A DNA stretch of 11,035 bases, from assembly GCA_016928395.1 (NCBI GenBank), contig JAFGKV010000164.1, positions 1 through 11,035 of the forward strand, given 5' to 3'. Below the pieces are notes generated by a model. The model worked only from the letters and a program-made list of their open reading frames with translations, made no database searches and was not told where the DNA came from. The stretch comes from Candidatus Fermentibacterota bacterium. GTDB taxonomy: Bacteria > JAFGKV01. The position numbers and the translations under genes were made by a program. Positions within the stretch are counted from its first letter, which is position 1; each line of letters begins with the position of its first letter. Below, piece after piece: positions 1,991 to 9,671 of this stretch.

Positions 1991-2263
1991 CTAAACCTCG
2001 TCCGCCGAGTTGCCGACGTAGCAGGCCGTGGTAGGGACCGGACCCTCGTAGCAACTTGGCACAAACTCACCCAGAGCGGCGGTGCCAGTGTAGCACCAGG
2101 TCCCGTCTCCGCCGCCGCTCTCGCAGGCCCCTAGGCCGGTGTAGCCATCCCCGAAACTGCAATCTCCTCCGGCTATCGCACCCGAGCCGGCAGCGCATCC
2201 TTGGGAATCGCCCTTGGCACTGCGGGCATTGAGGGGTCGAAGTTCAGGTCGTTGATAGATCAT
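1991..2263 (-). CDS. Small Cys/Gly-rich peptide with YxxPxL leader and six CxxG units; candidate RiPP precursor
   Basis: This 90-residue gene has a strong ribosome binding site, GGAGGA five bases before ATG at 2263, and a sigma70-like promoter further upstream. The peptide starts MIYQRPELRPLNARSAKGDS and has no signal peptide or membrane segment. Cysteines are at residues 23, 35, 47, 57, 71 and 81, and every one is followed by xxG (CAAG, CSFG, CESG, CYTG, CYEG, CYVG), spaced 10 to 14 residues apart and separated by Gly, Ala, Ser and Thr. Y3-x-x-P6-x-L8 matches the leader motif that PqqD-like RiPP recognition elements bind in lasso peptide precursors. I infer a ribosomally made, modified peptide with repeated Cys core units. 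No maturation enzyme, protease or transporter lies in the window, so it is orphan here. It could instead be a small metal-binding protein. That the gene is real is well supported; the RiPP role is a guess from pattern. Confidence 0.72.
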   Translation of the reverse strand: MIYQRPELRPLNARSAKGDSQGCAAGSGAIAGGDCSFGDGYTGLGACESGGGDGTWCYTGTAALGEFVPSCYEGPVPTTACYVGNSADEV

Positions 2264-2316
2264 CTCGCTCCTCCAAGGTTGGAGAAAAGATGTAACTCCC
2301 CTATAGAACAGATATC

Positions 2317-2344
2317 AAAATAGCACATCTCCAAAAGCTGTCAA
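2317..2344 (-). promoter_or_regulatory. Sigma70-like promoter of the Cys-rich peptide gene
   Basis: On the minus strand a perfect TTGACA (2344-2339) is separated by 16 bases from TATTTT (2322-2317). It sits in a locally AT-rich stretch, unlike the GC-rich repeats next to it. Transcription would start near 2310, giving a leader of about 45 bases before the GGAGGA site. Confidence 0.6.
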
Positions 2345-2814: not shown

Positions 2815-3282
2815 ATGGTTGAAAACGCCCACTGTCCCCGTCGGAAGCAAATTCGTCTGGATGCCCCGGCGTATGCAGTACCCGGCACGGTCTTCCATGT
2901 GACGGTCTGCTGTCGTGACCATGCTCCGCTCCTCTCCGATGTCGATACCGCAAGGGTCATCCGGGAGACTCTCATGAGTGGCGACTTCGCCGGCCGATGG
3001 GATCTCTATGCGTTCGCAATCATGCCCGATCATGTCCATCTTCTCATCGGTGTGTCCGAGTGGAATCTTGTTCGGGCAATCGCTGCCTGGAAGTCCCAGA
3101 CAACTCGGCGTCTGTGGGCCCGGGGTCATTCTGGCTCCGTATGGCAACGGTCATTCCATGATCACGGGCTTCGTCAACAGGAATCGGCGAAGGATGTGGC
3201 GGAGTACATCGTCGCAAACCCAGAGCGGGCTGGTCTACCCGAACGCACCCAATTCGTATGGCATCGTTGGATGGCTCCGTAG
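2815..3282 (+). CDS. REP-associated tyrosine transposase (RAYT), Y1 HUH family
   Basis: The 155-residue protein is a Y1 transposase of the TnpA-REP type, which cuts and joins single-stranded REP hairpins. The HUH motif is H73-V-H75 in MPDHVHLL, and the catalytic tyrosine is Tyr131 in VAEYIVANPERAGL. Between them is the conserved W110-QRSFHDHGLR block. The N-terminus (KQIRL, then GTVFHVTVCCRD) matches the first strand of the family. Length is normal, so the gene looks intact. ATG at 2815 is chosen because AGGAGA at 2801 is eight bases before it. Hairpin repeats lie on both sides, the usual REPtron layout, and the final codons are MAP followed by a TAG supplied by the downstream repeat. Established knowledge: single-copy RAYTs are domesticated or slowly mobile and act on their flanking REPs. 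That this protein handles these repeats is inference from position. Confidence 0.9.
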   Translation: MVENAHCPRRKQIRLDAPAYAVPGTVFHVTVCCRDHAPLLSDVDTARVIRETLMSGDFAGRWDLYAFAIMPDHVHLLIGVSEWNLVRAIAAWKSQTTRRLWARGHSGSVWQRSFHDHGLRQQESAKDVAEYIVANPERAGLPERTQFVWHRWMAP

Positions 3283-3603: not shown

Positions 3604-4590
3604 ATGCTGGGAACCCTAATTAGGCGCCTCCGACTGGAGCGGGGCATCTCCTTGGGGGCTTTGGCCGACGACGCCGGCGTCGCCCCAGAGATGCTCGAAG
3701 CTCTTGAAGCCGAACGTGTCGAGCTGATTGACGACTCAGAGGAGTTCCTGAGGATCATAGATCGGCTCGAAGTGCGCCAGGCGTTCACATTCGGGCAACT
3801 CCTCGATGCCAACCAGCCTCGGCGCTTTCGGGCCTACAATGTCGGGTTGATGAAGAGCGGCACATCCTCCATCGCGGGCATCTTTGGAGACTATCGTACC
3901 AGGCACGAGTTCATGCTGCTCAAGACCAGCAACGAATACGGCCGCTATTGCCACGGCACAATCTCCCGAGATGAGTTCCGCGAGTTCCTTCGACACCGGG
4001 ATGTCTCCGGCGCCCTTGAAATGGATTCGACGAGTTGGTCTTTCGAGTATGTCGATTTCCTGGTCGATGAGTACCCGGATGCGCTGTTCATCTTCACCTT
4101 CAGAGACTGCTACTCGTGGCTCAACTCGGTCATCGACTTCATACTGTGGTCAGAAAGGATTGAGTTCACGGGAAGACTGCGCGGCCGGCTCGGAATTCCC
4201 TTCGACCTCGCGCGTGGCGACGCAGCATCACGGGACAAGCTCGTGCCTACGATGGCTTCACTGGCCGAGGGCTTCCTGAGATTGTGGCGCGAGGCCAACG
4301 AGAAGGTGCTCCAGGCAGTACCGCCCGAGCGGCTGTTGATAGTGCGGACCCATGAGATATCGAAGAGTCTTGGAAGGATGGCGGAGTTCATCGGCGTTCC
4401 AGCGGATACGCTGATCCAGCGGCGATCCCACCTGTTCAAGACCCCGGTGAAGAGGCGAATCCTTCACACCATGGAGTTCGATCGCCTGAACGCCTTCTGC
4501 GATCAGCATTGCGGGCCGCTCATGCGCCGGCACTTCCCGGAGTTAAACCTCAAAGAGTATCTGGCCCAGACCTCGTCCGCGAAGCCCTGA
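3604..4590 (+). CDS. Sulfotransferase-family protein with N-terminal helix-turn-helix
   Basis: ATG at 3604 follows GAGGAGG with a four-base gap. In this 328-residue protein residues 5 to 55 (IRRLRLERGISLGALADDAG, then APEMLEALEAE) look like an XRE-type helix-turn-helix. From residue 78 it matches the PAPS-dependent sulfotransferase fold. VGLMKSGTSSI at 80-90 is the 5'-phosphosulfate loop. FRDCYSWLNSV at 166-176, with Arg167 and Ser175 eight residues apart, is the 3'-phosphate site. Conserved-looking acidic and aromatic residues (MDSTSW, 140-145) lie between. Family role: moving sulfate from PAPS to a sugar, lipid or small molecule; the substrate cannot be told. The DNA-binding-like front is unusual for this family and may be regulatory or a misread helical cap. 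No partner gene is adjacent: RAYT repeats lie upstream and a half repeat lies downstream. Confidence 0.82.
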   Translation: MLGTLIRRLRLERGISLGALADDAGVAPEMLEALEAERVELIDDSEEFLRIIDRLEVRQAFTFGQLLDANQPRRFRAYNVGLMKSGTSSIAGIFGDYRTRHEFMLLKTSNEYGRYCHGTISRDEFREFLRHRDVSGALEMDSTSWSFEYVDFLVDEYPDALFIFTFRDCYSWLNSVIDFILWSERIEFTGRLRGRLGIPFDLARGDAASRDKLVPTMASLAEGFLRLWREANEKVLQAVPPERLLIVRTHEISKSLGRMAEFIGVPADTLIQRRSHLFKTPVKRRILHTMEFDRLNAFCDQHCGPLMRRHFPELNLKEYLAQTSSAKP

Positions 4591-4706: not shown

Positions 4707-4759
4707 TTGACACAGACTCCATACACAATTAGTATGGATGCGTACTCAGTATGCATACC
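4707..4759 (+). promoter_or_regulatory. vapBC-type promoter with inverted-repeat operator
   Basis: TTGACA (4707) and TAGTAT (4730) are 17 bases apart. CCATAC (4719) and GTATGG (4732) form an inverted repeat across the -10. A perfect palindrome GTATGCATAC lies at 4749-4758, just before the GGAGGT ribosome site. The repeated GTATG/CATAC half-sites suggest autorepression by the toxin-antitoxin complex, as is usual for these operons. Confidence 0.6.
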
Positions 4760-4770
4760 GGAGGTGTTCA

Positions 4771-4992
4771 ATGAAGAGTGTGGTGGCGGAACGAGGGCAG
4801 GTGACGATTCCGAAGCCCATGCGCGAAAAGCTTGGGATCAAGCCGAAGTCGGTGCTCGATTTCACGGAAGAAGACGGGCGACTTATCGCCGTGCGGATTG
4901 ACGAGCACGACGTGGTTGAGGCGGTGCGCGGGTGCCTGAAAACCGGCAAGACCACCGAGGAGATCATGACCGAGCTGCGAGGGCTCGAGTGA
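4771..4992 (+). CDS. AbrB/SpoVT-type antitoxin (VapB-like)
   Basis: ATG at 4771 is chosen because GGAGGT lies five bases upstream; a longer frame back to 4738 would run through the operator. The 73-residue product starts MKSVVAERGQVTIPKPMREK, then LGIKPKSVLDF and RLIAVRI. This is the swapped-hairpin AbrB DNA-binding fold at residues 1-45. The C-terminal part (VVEAVRGCLKTGKTTEEIMTELRG) is helical and would bind and block the toxin. Its stop overlaps the start of the PIN toxin gene, so the two are translationally coupled. Family knowledge: the antitoxin neutralises VapC and, with it, represses the shared promoter. Confidence 0.88.
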   Translation: MKSVVAERGQVTIPKPMREKLGIKPKSVLDFTEEDGRLIAVRIDEHDVVEAVRGCLKTGKTTEEIMTELRGLE

Positions 4993-5420
4993 TCACGGCG
5001 GTCGACACGAATGTGCTCTTGGATGTCTTCCTCGACGATCCTTGCTTCGGCATGTCATCAGCGGCGCTGCTGCGAAGATGTATCGGCGAGGGAGTCGTTG
5101 CTGTGGGCGAGGTTGTGTGGGCGGAATGTGCGGCGGCCTTCCCGAATGATGAGGATTTCCGCACGGCCATGGCTGCCCTGGGCGTGAACTTCGTGGCCAC
5201 ATCCGCAGACGCGGCCCTTCGAGCGGGACGCGCGTGGCGGCAGTATCGGAGCCGAGGGGGATCGAGGCAGCGGATGGTTGCCGACTTCTTGATTGGGGCG
5301 CACGCGCTGGTGCAGACCGACCGCCTGCTGAGCCGCGATCGAGGCTTCTATGCGACCTACTTCCATGACCTGACCGTGCTCGACCCATCGCACCAGGTTC
5401 GCCCAACACCGTCTTCGTAG
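4989..5420 (+). CDS. PIN-domain ribonuclease toxin (VapC-like)
   Basis: GTG at 4989 is the likely start: it overlaps the antitoxin TGA by two bases and gives the standard beginning MITAVDTNVLLDVF. The 143-residue protein has the four PIN acidic residues: Asp6, Glu46 (VVWAEC), Asp99 (MVADFLIGAHA) and Asp117 (LLSRDRGFY). They coordinate metal for RNA cleavage, typically of tRNA or rRNA. Length is normal. The frame ends SS followed by a TAG that belongs to the hairpin repeat starting at 5416, so the original C-terminus may have been replaced or slightly changed. Specific RNA target unknown. Confidence 0.9.
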   Translation: MITAVDTNVLLDVFLDDPCFGMSSAALLRRCIGEGVVAVGEVVWAECAAAFPNDEDFRTAMAALGVNFVATSADAALRAGRAWRQYRSRGGSRQRMVADFLIGAHALVQTDRLLSRDRGFYATYFHDLTVLDPSHQVRPTPSS

Positions 5421-5513
5421 GGGAGGGACCCGTGCCCTCCCGTCGTTCCGTTCGTAGGGGAGGGCGTCTCTGCCCTCCCGTTGTTCGTGCGACCAGGGGC
5501 CGTCGCTCCTACG
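5416..5513 (+). repeat. REP-like hairpin pair between the two vapC genes
   Basis: A short unit (loop ACCCGTG) at 5416 and a complete unit at 5453, 37 bp apart. The complete unit has changes in its second hairpin (GTGCGACC...CGTCGCTCC), weakening that stem, and ends CTACG at 5513. It lies between convergent toxin genes, 23 bases from the stop of the minus-strand one, so it could end transcription from both sides. Confidence 0.85.
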
Positions 5514-5536
5514 AGCGAAGCGAAGGATTCATCCAT

Positions 5537-5932
5537 TCACCAGATGACCGACAGGCCTTCGGCCTGACGAAGCTTTCGGTCGGCGGTCACCAGAGGTGCC
5601 CCGAGGACAGAGGCGGTGGCCATGATGAGGCGGTCGGCAGGATCGCGGGGAGCGGGTTCGGGCAGCATTACTGCCCGAAGGGCAATCCGGTTGTCCACCG
5701 GCACGAACCTGAGAAACGGCACGCCCTCCGATCTGGCGATCCACGCCGCAATATCCATGGTGAGGACCAGGCGGCCGCGGGAGACAAGCATGGCCACCTC
5801 CCAGGCGCTGATGGAGGATACCCGTAGCCCGTCACGGGCGATCTCGGAATCTATGGCTTCTCTGGCCGCGGGCGAGAGTTTCTCCGGCGAGGCCGCCCAC
5901 CACACCCAGGCGTGGGTGTCCAACACGATCAC
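5537..5932 (-). CDS. PIN-domain toxin (VapC-like) paired with Phd-type antitoxin
   Basis: GTG at 5932 is preferred because it overlaps the antitoxin TGA (GTGA) and gives MIVLDTHAWVWW, the usual beginning of this PIN subgroup; a GTG at 5947 would add five residues. The 131-residue protein has Asp5, Glu45 (SISAWEVAML), Asp100 (PADRLIMATA) and Asp118 (VTADRKL), the four metal-binding acidic residues. It is a predicted metal-dependent ribonuclease. It differs from the plus-strand VapC in sequence subgroup and partner, so the two operons are not simple duplicates. It appears intact. Confidence 0.9.
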   Translation of the reverse strand: MIVLDTHAWVWWAASPEKLSPAAREAIDSEIARDGLRVSSISAWEVAMLVSRGRLVLTMDIAAWIARSEGVPFLRFVPVDNRIALRAVMLPEPAPRDPADRLIMATASVLGAPLVTADRKLRQAEGLSVIW

Positions 5933-6165
5933 GACAGTGCCTCCCACTCCTCGGGAGGGATCGCCGGTTCGGTCGGCCTATCATAGCGGATGACCGAGCC
6001 ACGCACGCCAGCAAGGGCTTTGTTTACATCAACGCGATAGGGCGCAACGACCGCAACCGGGTTGCCGCGATCAGTGATGATCACCTCGTTGCCCGTTCGC
6101 TCCACATCGCGGAGATACTCCAGCGCCCGGGCCTTGAACCGTGACTTTGACACTGTGACAGCCAT
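5929..6165 (-). CDS. Phd/YefM-family antitoxin
   Basis: ATG at 6165 is chosen because GGAGG lies six bases upstream; a TTG-started longer form would cover that site. The 78-residue product begins MAVTVSKSRFKARALEYLRD and has the Phd core VERTGNEVIITDRGNPVAVV, a dimerising DNA-binding fold over about residues 1-50. The C-terminus (PTEPAIPPEEWEALS) is likely the disordered toxin-binding segment. Its stop overlaps the PIN toxin start. Family knowledge: neutralises the toxin and represses its own promoter; a palindrome over the predicted transcription start supports this. Confidence 0.88.
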   Translation of the reverse strand: MAVTVSKSRFKARALEYLRDVERTGNEVIITDRGNPVAVVAPYRVDVNKALAGVRGSVIRYDRPTEPAIPPEEWEALS

Positions 6166-6181
6166 TGCCATCCTCCATTTC

Positions 6182-6223
6182 AAAGACCATGGTCATATTA
6201 CTGTAGTCTTTAAAGAAAGGCAA
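6182..6223 (-). promoter_or_regulatory. Promoter and operator of the phd-vapC-type operon
   Basis: On the minus strand TTGCCT (6223-6218) and TAATAT (6200-6195) are 17 bases apart. A perfect palindrome GACCATGGTC (6185-6194) sits at the predicted start of transcription. A wider inverted pair, AAAGAC (6182) and GTCTTT (6206), encloses the -10. Both fit an autorepressor site. Confidence 0.55.
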
Positions 6224-6490
6224 GGCTCCGCCCCTACGATGGTGGGTTGACATCGGTTGTCCGTAGGGGAGGGCGTCTCTGCCCTCCCGTGGTTTCGGGC
6301 GACCAGGGCATTCGCCCCTACGGGGCTGGGTTGAGATCGGTTGTTCCGTCCGTAGGGGAGGGCGTCTCTGCCCTCCCGATCTTCGGGCGACCAGGGGCGG
6401 TCGCCCCTACGGGGGTGGGTTGCCCATCGGATGCCGTAGGGGAAGGACCTGTCCCACATCAGGCGGTGCGGGAGCAACTGGCCTCCCGGG
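6223..6490 (+). repeat. REP-like hairpin array between phd and hicA: fragment, two complete units, one decayed unit
   Basis: A right-end fragment (CCGCCCCTACG) at 6229-6239 is followed by the linker GGGTTGACATCGGTT. Complete units lie at 6262-6322 (right stem altered to GGGCATTCGCCCC) and 6351-6411. The linkers after them decay stepwise (GGGTTGAGATCGG, then GGGTTGCCCATCGG). A last unit at 6435 has lost its stem and runs into a GGTGCGGGAGCAACTG variant like the one at 2661. The bases from 6491 to 6604 hold no gene that I can see. Confidence 0.82.
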
Positions 6491-6604
6491 AGGATGCCGC
6501 TAACCAGGGGCGGCTCGACTGTCGGTTGCCGGCGTACTCGCCCGGCTCCTGATCCGGTGTCTGGAGGTTGACTCTCCTTTGCGCCGGCCGGGTAGGCGGT
6601 GTCC

Positions 6605-6633
6605 TTGGCATCACTCCGTCTTGCTCGTAGATT
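6605..6633 (+). promoter_or_regulatory. Possible hicAB promoter giving a leaderless message
   Basis: TTGGCA at 6605 and TAGATT at 6628 are 17 bases apart. The A of the ATG at 6640 is seven bases after the -10, where transcription normally starts, and no Shine-Dalgarno sequence is present before the gene. The message may therefore be leaderless. Confidence 0.4.
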
Positions 6634-6639
6634 ACTCCC

Positions 6640-6894
6640 ATGGGTACATATGAACGGCTGTATGAACACATTCTCGTGCGTCGCTCCGACGCGCACGTTC
6701 GTTTCGATGCGCTCTGCAACCTTCTCGTTCGCTTGGGTTTCGAGGAACGGATCAAGGGCGACCACCACATCTTCACGATGACCGGTGTCGAAGAGATCCT
6801 CAACCTCCAGCCAGTTGGCAGCCATGGCAAGGCGTACCAGGTCAAGCAGGTCAGGGACATCATCCTGAAGTACCGTCTGAGATTGGGAGAATGA
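6640..6894 (+). CDS. HicA-like mRNA interferase toxin
   Basis: This 84-residue protein has the HicA core: VRFDALCNLLVRLGF (residues 20-34), then GDHHIF (40-45) with the family's His residues at 42-43, and HGKAYQVKQVRDIILKY near the end. HicA folds as a small double-stranded-RNA-binding domain that cleaves mRNA with a histidine. It is somewhat longer than the roughly 60-residue classic HicA because of an N-terminal helix (MGTYERLYEHILVRRSDAHV). No ribosome binding site precedes ATG 6640. The gene ends two bases before the best start of the antitoxin. Pairing with HicB makes the assignment firm. Confidence 0.85.
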   Translation: MGTYERLYEHILVRRSDAHVRFDALCNLLVRLGFEERIKGDHHIFTMTGVEEILNLQPVGSHGKAYQVKQVRDIILKYRLRLGE

Positions 6895-6896
6895 GC

Positions 6897-7109
6897 ATGA
6901 AGTCCAAGTACGAGATTCTCATCTACTGGAGCGATGAAGACTCGGCATTTGTGGCTGAGGTCCCAGAGCTGCCTGGATGCATGGCGGACGGAAAAACCTA
7001 CCAGGAAGTTCTGTCGAATGTCGAGCAGATCATCGCGGAATGGATCGAGACTGCAGAAAGACTCGGTCGGCCGATCCCGCAGCCGAAGGGCCGCCTCGTC
7101 TACGCTTGA
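6897..7109 (+). CDS. HicB-family antitoxin
   Basis: ATG at 6897 has GGGAGA seven to eight bases upstream; ATG at 6891, overlapping the hicA stop, is the alternative and adds two residues. The 70-residue protein reads YEILIYWSDEDSAFVAEVPE, then LPGCMADGKTYQEVLSNVEQ and WIETAERLGRPIPQPKG, the partial RNase H-like fold of HicB. It lacks a separate DNA-binding domain, which is usual for this short class. It should bind HicA and block its active site. Translation is probably coupled to hicA. Confidence 0.9.
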   Translation: MKSKYEILIYWSDEDSAFVAEVPELPGCMADGKTYQEVLSNVEQIIAEWIETAERLGRPIPQPKGRLVYA

Positions 7110-7946: not shown

Positions 7947-9671
7947 TCAGTCGCAGCCGCTAGAGCAGGCCTTGAAGTCGAGATTCAGGAAGGCCTTGAA
8001 GTCGTCGGTTTCGAGGTAGTCCATCTCCCGCTGGAAATCTCGTGAGGCCACGCTCTTGGCACCCTCAACCGACAGTGGAATCTCAAAGGCCGAGTCGTCT
8101 CCCGCAGTGCCCGTGACCCGGGTGAAGAACCACTCGGCGCCAGGGACCGGCACATCCACGATATCGGGCAAGGGCACCAGCTGAAATGCCGAGAACAAGA
8201 TTATGCAGAATCGGTACATGGCGCGTTCGAAATCGGTGAATGCGGGGCGGAGGAGCTGAAGCCGGAGCTTGTCGTGAAGGGCCTCGCCTTCGACGCCGAT
8301 AAGGTAGTTGCGCGGGATGTACCGGGGGATATTGAACGCAATGTAGTCGGTTCCGGGCAGGCCCTGAACCACGTGGCGGAGATCCATGCTGCCGATGAAC
8401 ATCCGGCAGTCCCCCCGGAGCTTGCCCTTGAGACTGACCACATCGGCGGGGCCTCGCCGCTTCTCGAAGAATAGCTCGGCCTTGCCCGTGACCTTGTAGC
8501 GGGTTCGCATATAGGGCGCGCCGGCCAAGTAGTAGTCGATCCTGAGGTCGCCGTCTAGCGGGCCTATGTAGCGCTCGCAGTTGCTGAGCGCATCGTCAAC
8601 TACCCACTCGGTGCATTTCTCGATAGCGGTGGTCAGCGGCCCCTGAATATCCTGGAACCCACCGCAGGCGTTTTCGATCTCCCTGACGGCCAGGAGGCCA
8701 TTCCGCTTGCATTCCTGTATCATCGCCTGCTGCTCGGGGGTGTACTGGTCGAACAAGTAGCTGTCAATGAGCTTCTGAACACCCTCGGTCAGCGCGTTCT
8801 TCATGGTGTTCAGACACCACACCGTGACCCCCTCCACCAATGTCACGACCTTCAGATAGAGGTTCAAGGTCTCCTTAACGACTTCGCACTGATAGAACCA
8901 GTGCTGACACCAAAAGGCGGTTGACTTCGTATCGGCGACCCTGTCCACCACAACGGCCTGGGCCTGGCGAACCGCGTCGCTATGCGTTGCGAGCAGCAGG
9001 GCTCCTTGCGCCAGCGCCTCCTGTACTTCAGGCGCGGGAACCCCCTCAGCCGCGGAGGTCAGGGCTTCCATGGCAATCTGGAACTGAGTGATGCGTTCTT
9101 GGGCGGAGTCGAGTGCCTGCAGGGCCGCGGCCGCCTGCTGCAAAGCCTCCCCCTGGCCCGGGGTTGCCGGGTAGTCCGCCGTGGCAGTGTGAAACAGGCG
9201 AATGGCCTCCATCTGAGTGCGGCCGGCGTCGGCAAGAGCCTGGGCAGCGAGCCCGAATGCGGCCGCGGTTTCGACAACCTCGAATGACTCTTCGGCCACC
9301 TCGTCAAGCCCGGGCGCTTCGACTCTCGCAATCCAGTTGCCCGCAACGGCCAGCGGCCCTGAGGTCCAGGAGAAGCGCCCATCGTCAGCCCGGGTTACCG
9401 AGCCGTCTGTGCCAACCTGGGTTAAGGCAGTGGCCGGGGGCACGAGCATCACGTGAACCTCATTTGCCGCCGCAGACGGAGCCGCCCACCCGCTGACCGT
9501 GAGAGACAGCCCCCGCACCGCCGGGGTCGGAGCGATGGTGAATTGAATGAACTGCCCATCGTAGGCAGCCGACTCTCCCGCCAAAGCTTGCAACAGCATC
9601 GCCGCCAGCCCCGCGCGAGACCACCCCGCGAGGCCGTGGGTGCCGCCCGGGCTAGACCTCATCGGAGGCAT
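7947..9671 (-). CDS. Secreted Cys-rich protein of unknown function
   Basis: I do not recognise this 574-residue protein. A signal peptide is visible: Arg19, then AGLAAMLLQALAG and a likely cut after SAA at residue 36. Residues 38-133 look like a beta-sandwich (Ig-like) domain (LTVSGWAAP, HVMLVPP, GRFSWTSGPL, GNWIARVEAPG). Residues 134-250 are Ala/Gln-rich and helical. Residues 251-370 hold seven of the eleven cysteines (255, 262, 286, 321, 336, 353, 365), suggesting disulfides outside the cytoplasm. Residues 375-540 look mostly beta, with a hydrophobic stretch at 488-503. The last residues contain CSSGC. Start: ATG 9671 overlaps the end of the upstream gene by 20 bases; ATG 9662, with AGGA eight bases before it, is equally possible. 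Co-transcription with the small membrane protein suggests a shared envelope role. No catalytic motif was found. Confidence 0.82.
   Translation of the reverse strand: MPPMRSSPGGTHGLAGWSRAGLAAMLLQALAGESAAYDGQFIQFTIAPTPAVRGLSLTVSGWAAPSAAANEVHVMLVPPATALTQVGTDGSVTRADDGRFSWTSGPLAVAGNWIARVEAPGLDEVAEESFEVVETAAAFGLAAQALADAGRTQMEAIRLFHTATADYPATPGQGEALQQAAAALQALDSAQERITQFQIAMEALTSAAEGVPAPEVQEALAQGALLLATHSDAVRQAQAVVVDRVADTKSTAFWCQHWFYQCEVVKETLNLYLKVVTLVEGVTVWCLNTMKNALTEGVQKLIDSYLFDQYTPEQQAMIQECKRNGLLAVREIENACGGFQDIQGPLTTAIEKCTEWVVDDALSNCERYIGPLDGDLRIDYYLAGAPYMRTRYKVTGKAELFFEKRRGPADVVSLKGKLRGDCRMFIGSMDLRHVVQGLPGTDYIAFNIPRYIPRNYLIGVEGEALHDKLRLQLLRPAFTDFERAMYRFCIILFSAFQLVPLPDIVDVPVPGAEWFFTRVTGTAGDDSAFEIPLSVEGAKSVASRDFQREMDYLETDDFKAFLNLDFKACSSGCD

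Follow-up and report, generated by a model that had tools for sequence, protein, structure and literature searches.

A CxxG-repeat peptide gene of a Candidatus Fermentibacterota bacterium as a likely scattered precursor of SCM-type (SynChlorMet) radical-SAM RiPPs

Does a short gene for a cysteine-rich peptide that stands without a maturase on its contig encode a RiPP precursor, and which enzymes would then modify the product? This question was raised by an 11,035-nucleotide stretch of DNA from a Candidatus Fermentibacterota bacterium (hereafter the window), which makes up all of C207, one of the 343 contigs of a 4.8-Mb genome, and the surroundings of the gene therefore stop at the window edges. 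The initial annotation had taken the span 1991-2344, which corresponds to the precursor gene and its promoter, for a candidate orphan RiPP precursor, possibly of an undescribed class. The analysis described herein well supported the assignment as a RiPP precursor, and we consider it likely that the gene encodes a scattered precursor for a radical-SAM RiPP of SCM (SynChlorMet) type.

The precursor gene and its contig

The features of the window are as follows.
1991..2263, minus strand: ScmA-like precursor peptide gene, 90 aa, ATG start, leader approximately residues 1-22, six-CxxG core (from ORF and profile)
2240..2257, minus strand: leader motif YQRPEL, residues 3-8, predicted docking site of ScmD, a PqqD-like RRE (from sequence)
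2264..2274, minus strand: ribosome-binding site region, GGAGGAGCGAG ahead of the ATG (from sequence)
2317..2344, minus strand: sigma-70-like promoter TTGACA-N16-TATTTT, with TG ahead of the -10 element
2815..3282, plus strand: REP-associated tyrosine transposase, between the precursor and HTH-sulfotransferase genes (NF047646, 96.6 bits, cut-off 80)
3604..4590, plus strand: XRE-type HTH fused to a sulfotransferase domain, 328 aa, candidate tailoring enzyme (Pfam)
4738-4992 with 4932-5420: MazE/AbrB with PIN, toxin-antitoxin-like module
5929-6183 with 5537-5947, both minus strand: Phd with PIN, toxin-antitoxin-like module
6640-6894 with 6891-7109: HicA-like/HicB-like pair, toxin-antitoxin-like module, the HicA-like/HicB-like call being by eye only

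The ORF at 1991-2263 bore out the initial description of the peptide. Its leader, MIYQRPELRPLN, carries the YxxPxL motif, all six cysteines (residues 23, 35, 47, 57, 71, and 81; spacings 12, 12, 10, 14, and 10) have Gly at the +3 position, and the final three CxxG units are CYTG, CYEG, and CYVG. Six such units were reached in 4 of 300,000 shuffles of the whole peptide and in 18 of 300,000 trials upon shuffling of the core only. The expression signals claimed for the gene were likewise recovered, the promoter being found once against 0.1 expected from shuffles, and a GGAGG sequence lying a few bases 5' of the ATG. The GC content by codon position was flat (0.63/0.63/0.66); since the precursor in the C329 cassette of the same genome, described below, was equally flat (0.59/0.66/0.61), this is no argument against the ORF. 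We judge the window ORF to be a real precursor gene that is probably expressed.

Elsewhere in the window, Rfam and tRNA scans were empty, and the 574-aa protein encoded at 7947-9671 on the minus strand gave no significant family match. The REP-associated transposase was regarded as lying outside the pathway and as a possible cause of the separation of the precursor gene. REP-like repeats of approximately 100 nt, present in at least seven copies between positions 1810 and 7669, surround this transposase (CGTAGGGGAGGG...CCCTCCCG and GGGCGACCAGGGGCGGTCGCCC), and the three toxin-antitoxin-like modules follow one another within 4738-7109.

CxxG peptides and SCM cassettes in this and other genomes

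No maturase was found on the 11-kb window contig. A survey of the RiPP enzymes of the genome, by which its SCM cassettes came to light, identified four clear PqqD-like proteins, two of which, on contigs C329 and C88, adjoin radical SAM genes and small CxxG-repeat peptides with YxxPxL-like leaders. Each of these cassettes comprises a CxxG peptide, ScmD, ScmF (534 bits on C329 and 524 bits on C88; curated NCBIfam cut-off, 400 bits), and ScmC. The C329 peptide (MGKYESPILIPLGEMAKGSGLCETGSS...CTAGTAALNACTAG) contains seven CxxG units, and the C88 peptide reads MNYTAPCLYRL...CTSG..CISG..CTTG..CANG. ScmE seems to have been lost from both cassettes; a short radical-SAM fragment lies between ScmD and ScmF of C329 (L072:1554-1800), at the usual place of ScmE. 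On contig C308, a CxxG peptide adjoins an ScmF-like protein (384 bits, below the cut-off) and an ScmC-like P-loop protein, bringing the genome to two ScmF proteins that pass the curated cut-off plus one ScmF-like protein that does not. Profile searches additionally revealed a CxxG peptide on the 5.5-kb contig C306, which has no maturase, and two tandem CxxG peptides in a same-genus genome. Two further candidates were set aside, namely a PqqD/radical SAM pair on C3, which looks like a different system and has no CxxG peptide nearby, and a match at L003 in the same genome, which overlaps ordinary genes. The term orphan used in the initial annotation thus holds for the contig but not for the genome.

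A scan of named genomes for ScmF yielded 25 loci, at most of which a CxxG peptide accompanies ScmD/E/F/C and an ABC exporter, in genomes labelled as Aminicenantes, Desulfobacterota/Deltaproteobacteria, Brocadiaceae, Acidobacteriota, Verrucomicrobia/Lentisphaerae/Kiritimatiellae, Anaerolineales, Riflebacteria, Contendobacter, and KSB1. On sufficiently long contigs, the usual order was either CxxG peptide-ScmD-ScmE-ScmF-ScmC-ABC exporter or ScmD-ScmE-ScmF-peptide-ScmC-exporter. The exporter is MsbA-like, ScmC is weakly HprK-like, and a signal-peptidase-I-like gene was present in two cassettes checked. In the alignment of 26 ScmF and ScmF-like proteins, ten Cys residues were invariant, consisting of the three of the CX3CX2C motif and seven of the SPASM domain. 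Among 29 CxxG peptides besides that of the window, Gly occupied the +3 position of 88% of the 174 Cys residues, in comparison with 5-34% at other nearby positions. Both checks proposed in the initial annotation therefore came out in its favor, in that the Cys pattern is conserved and the relatives adjoin radical SAM and PqqD-like genes.

The cassette corresponds to NCBIfam TIGR04248-TIGR04252 (ScmD, ScmC, ScmE, ScmF, and ScmA), and the proposal of an undescribed peptide class was accordingly abandoned. The class is already named in NCBIfam and hence not new, although apparently known by name rather than by product and chemistry; no paper in the library searched characterised SCM, contained 'SynChlorMet', or combined CXXG with RiPP.

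As to whether the window peptide belongs with these precursors, a profile built from ScmF-adjacent peptides of other genomes gave it 25.6 bits, whereas the maxima of the controls were 16.7 bits (2000 plain shuffles) and 23.9 bits (2000 CxxG-preserving shuffles), none of the 2000 in either set exceeding the window peptide. Together with the ScmF-adjacent relatives, this profile test well supported a RiPP-type precursor built on a CxxG repeat unit. The leader alone scored a weak 4.2 bits against a general leader profile, approximately 14 of 5000 shuffles being at least equal, and matched the leaders of the C306 peptide and of the peptide on G064:C9 (Candidatus Brocadiaceae B4_bin.26) better than did all 5000 shuffles. 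The curated ScmA model TIGR04252 (cut-off, 35 bits) did not match the window peptide; the model gave the C329 peptide 29.2 bits, below its cut-off, and matched 4 of 24 family members at E<=1. Because the curated model missed the peptide, as it did most cassette-adjacent relatives, we name it ScmA-like and not a member of TIGR04252. The gene does not lie beside ScmD, ScmE, or ScmF on its 11-kb contig, and it is of SCM type in the wider sense of a YxxPxL leader followed by a CxxG-repeat core with ScmD and ScmF in the same genome (C329 and C88). Close relatives were absent from the 60 nearest genomes and the GTDB collection, a query with the single peptide returned chance matches only, no curated family was found for it, and neither the same-genus genome (82% complete) nor any other genome searched yielded an ortholog.

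Maturation in trans and rival explanations

To place this separation in context, a CxxG profile was searched against 23 genomes and gave 30 matches; since the profile included the window and own-genome peptides, their scores in this search are not independent. ScmF (or, on two contigs, an ScmF-like protein) was present on the same contig, within approximately 2.1 kb, for 24 of the 30 peptides. The six without ScmF on their contig were the window peptide, that on C306 of the same genome, two on G001:C279, and one each on G072:C136 and G069:C242. Since the G072:C136 peptide lies well inside a contig of 40.8 kb, it represents a real stray, and every stray-bearing genome encodes ScmF or an ScmF-like protein elsewhere. 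Maturation of the window peptide in trans is supported by these observations rather than proven. Between the two tandem CxxG precursors of contig G001:C279 (L087; 19 kb without ScmF), a glycosyltransferase-like ORF was discerned by eye; the contig also carries genes that are ScmC-like and, weakly, ScmD-like.

The separation would be only apparent if an SCM cassette lay beyond the left end of the contig or if assembly had split the locus, in which case the peptide would be an ordinary cassette precursor. The position of the gene, 2 kb from the left contig end, and the short, broken state of the other cassette contigs of the genome (7.0, 4.9, and 3.2 kb) speak for this possibility, whereas a long ORF for an FG-GAP secreted protein (1-1821) fills the left side, 8.7 kb to the right of the gene are devoid of a maturase, and all 24 linked peptides lie within approximately 2.1 kb of ScmF; we hold a hidden cassette to be unlikely, while according it some weight. 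The gene could instead be a relic copy, left by cassette loss or REP-element shuffling and no longer modified or used, in keeping with the REP-like repeats and transposase that flank it and with its absence from the same-genus genome. The intact ORF and six CxxG units, the strong promoter and ribosome-binding site, and the maturases retained in the genome argue against such decay, which we judge improbable.

A Cys/Gly-rich peptide of non-RiPP nature, metal-binding or structural, might resemble the family through composition, and indeed CxxG spacing alone accounts for much of the profile score, as the best CxxG-preserving shuffle indicates. Such a composition effect is nevertheless quite implausible in view of the YxxPxL leader, its similarity to leaders elsewhere in the CxxG family (reached by 0 of 5000 shuffles), and the matching peptides in cassettes of the same genome. 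Modification by a YcaO protein or a lanthipeptide synthetase in place of a radical SAM enzyme was named among the options of the initial annotation, which is all that recommends it; with 0 YcaO matches in the source genome and relatives that adjoin ScmF radical SAM proteins, it is highly improbable.

For the preferred reading, that of a scattered SCM-type precursor, the following route is proposed. The YxxPxL leader would be bound by ScmD supplied from an unlinked cassette, and ScmF would then act on each CxxG unit, most likely by linking its Cys through a thioether to the Gly or to some other residue of that unit. Thioether formation at every Cys is the likeliest reaction because SPASM radical SAM enzymes make Cys thioethers in sactipeptides and ranthipeptides, and by this analogy the Cys residues of the window peptide are probably modified by ScmF. 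ScmC may phosphorylate the peptide, a role suggested by its weak HprK-related match, and leader removal and export would proceed as in the systems for linear polyphosphorylated peptides (LPP).

The HTH-sulfotransferase and comparison with known systems

The protein encoded at 3604-4590 matched Pfam Sulfotransfer_4 (PF17784; 6e-9, 36.4 bits, cut-off 22.8) and, more weakly, HTH_31/HTH_25, and its gene lies 1.3 kb from the precursor gene in divergent orientation. Among the 23 genomes, such proteins occurred only in the source genome and in the above Candidatus Brocadiaceae B4_bin.26, with a full-length identity of 37-38% (37% over 323 residues). In the latter, the gene is part of a complete SCM cassette whose genes share one strand and run ScmD (124 bits)-ScmE (611)-CxxG peptide-ScmF (589)-ScmC (302)-HTH-sulfotransferase-signal-peptidase-I-like gene. 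No further HTH-fused full-length relative was found in 392 genomes of that phylum and a domain-wide sample of 386, so that the 23 + 392 + 386 genomes searched (approximately 800) gave this cassette protein as the sole full-length relative; the viral collection likewise contained no relative. Three sulfotransferase relatives that lack the HTH part, from G104, G600, and G016, are not accompanied by a CxxG peptide and hence do not extend the link. What is new here is an HTH-sulfotransferase near a CxxG precursor, with a relative in an SCM cassette.

The CxxG peptide of the Brocadiaceae cassette (IYSKPSLQPINSASHGAFCLNG..CNTG..CYTG) has a leader closely resembling that of the window peptide; its gene shows no ordinary start codon and is preceded by an RT-like ORF. 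Within the first panel, CYxG was confined to these two peptides. An exclusive link between CYxG and the sulfotransferase was dropped, however, since four Syntrophaceae precursors (L104 and L106) carry CYxG without such a sulfotransferase, and for the same reason Tyr sulfation is a guess. The HTH-sulfotransferase gene probably has a tailoring role in the SCM sub-branch represented by the window, with the Tyr of CYxG as a candidate site, and the window peptide is possibly sulfated. A more elaborate and decidedly tentative proposal is that this sub-branch comprises unlinked CxxG precursors that would be matured in trans by shared ScmD/ScmF, with a thioether-type crosslink per CxxG and the Tyr of CYxG sulfated by the dedicated HTH-sulfotransferase, giving a bacterial peptide with several crosslinks, sulfation, and possibly phosphorylation.

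The window peptide resembles SCM systems in its YxxPxL leader, its CxxG-repeat core, and the presence of such maturases in the same genome; it differs from them in a contig without cassette, in being missed by the curated ScmA model, and in an HTH-sulfotransferase neighbor that is atypical of cassettes. Lasso and LPP systems employ a discrete PqqD-like RRE to bind the YxxP motif, which is essential for this contact (PMC13381572). LPP clusters further encode an HprK-like kinase for phosphorylation of the peptide, a leader peptidase resembling signal peptidase I, and an MsbA-like pump (PMC13381572). SCM cassettes hold the RRE, kinase-like, peptidase-like, and pump parts plus radical SAM/SPASM enzymes; the LPP paper names no radical SAM enzyme and describes no CxxG core, and the LPP leader consensus YxxPxVLxHQxIxFETxxS, compared by eye, is not matched by the window leader YQRPELRPLNARSAKG (PMC13381572). 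Neither a lasso macrolactam synthetase nor a B2 protease was detected among the main window ORFs scanned.

Radical SAM/SPASM enzymes of sactipeptides and ranthipeptides (SkfB and others) act on several Cys units and make Cys thioethers, freyrasin having six Cys-Asp bridges (PMC8326336). The window unit is CxxG instead of Cys-Asp, the precursor and maturase families differ, and the crosslinks of the window peptide are predicted ones. RaxX/RaxST (PMC6637879) likewise pairs a small precursor with a sulfotransferase and serves as precedent for bacterial peptide sulfation only, with no sequence relation claimed.

The CxxG unit common to approximately 30 precursors makes the modification site directly testable. 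Precursors located away from their maturases imply that part of the class escapes genome mining by clusters, and should the sulfotransferase link be right, it would bring in a second tailoring chemistry. In the Syntrophaceae locus L104 (9650-13769), three CxxG precursors alternate with three copies of ScmC (peptide-ScmC three times), which suggests one kinase-like ScmC per precursor; the precursors of L104 and L106, with 14-15 Cys residues, far exceed the rest of the family in Cys content and contain CC and CxC pairs in addition to CxxG.
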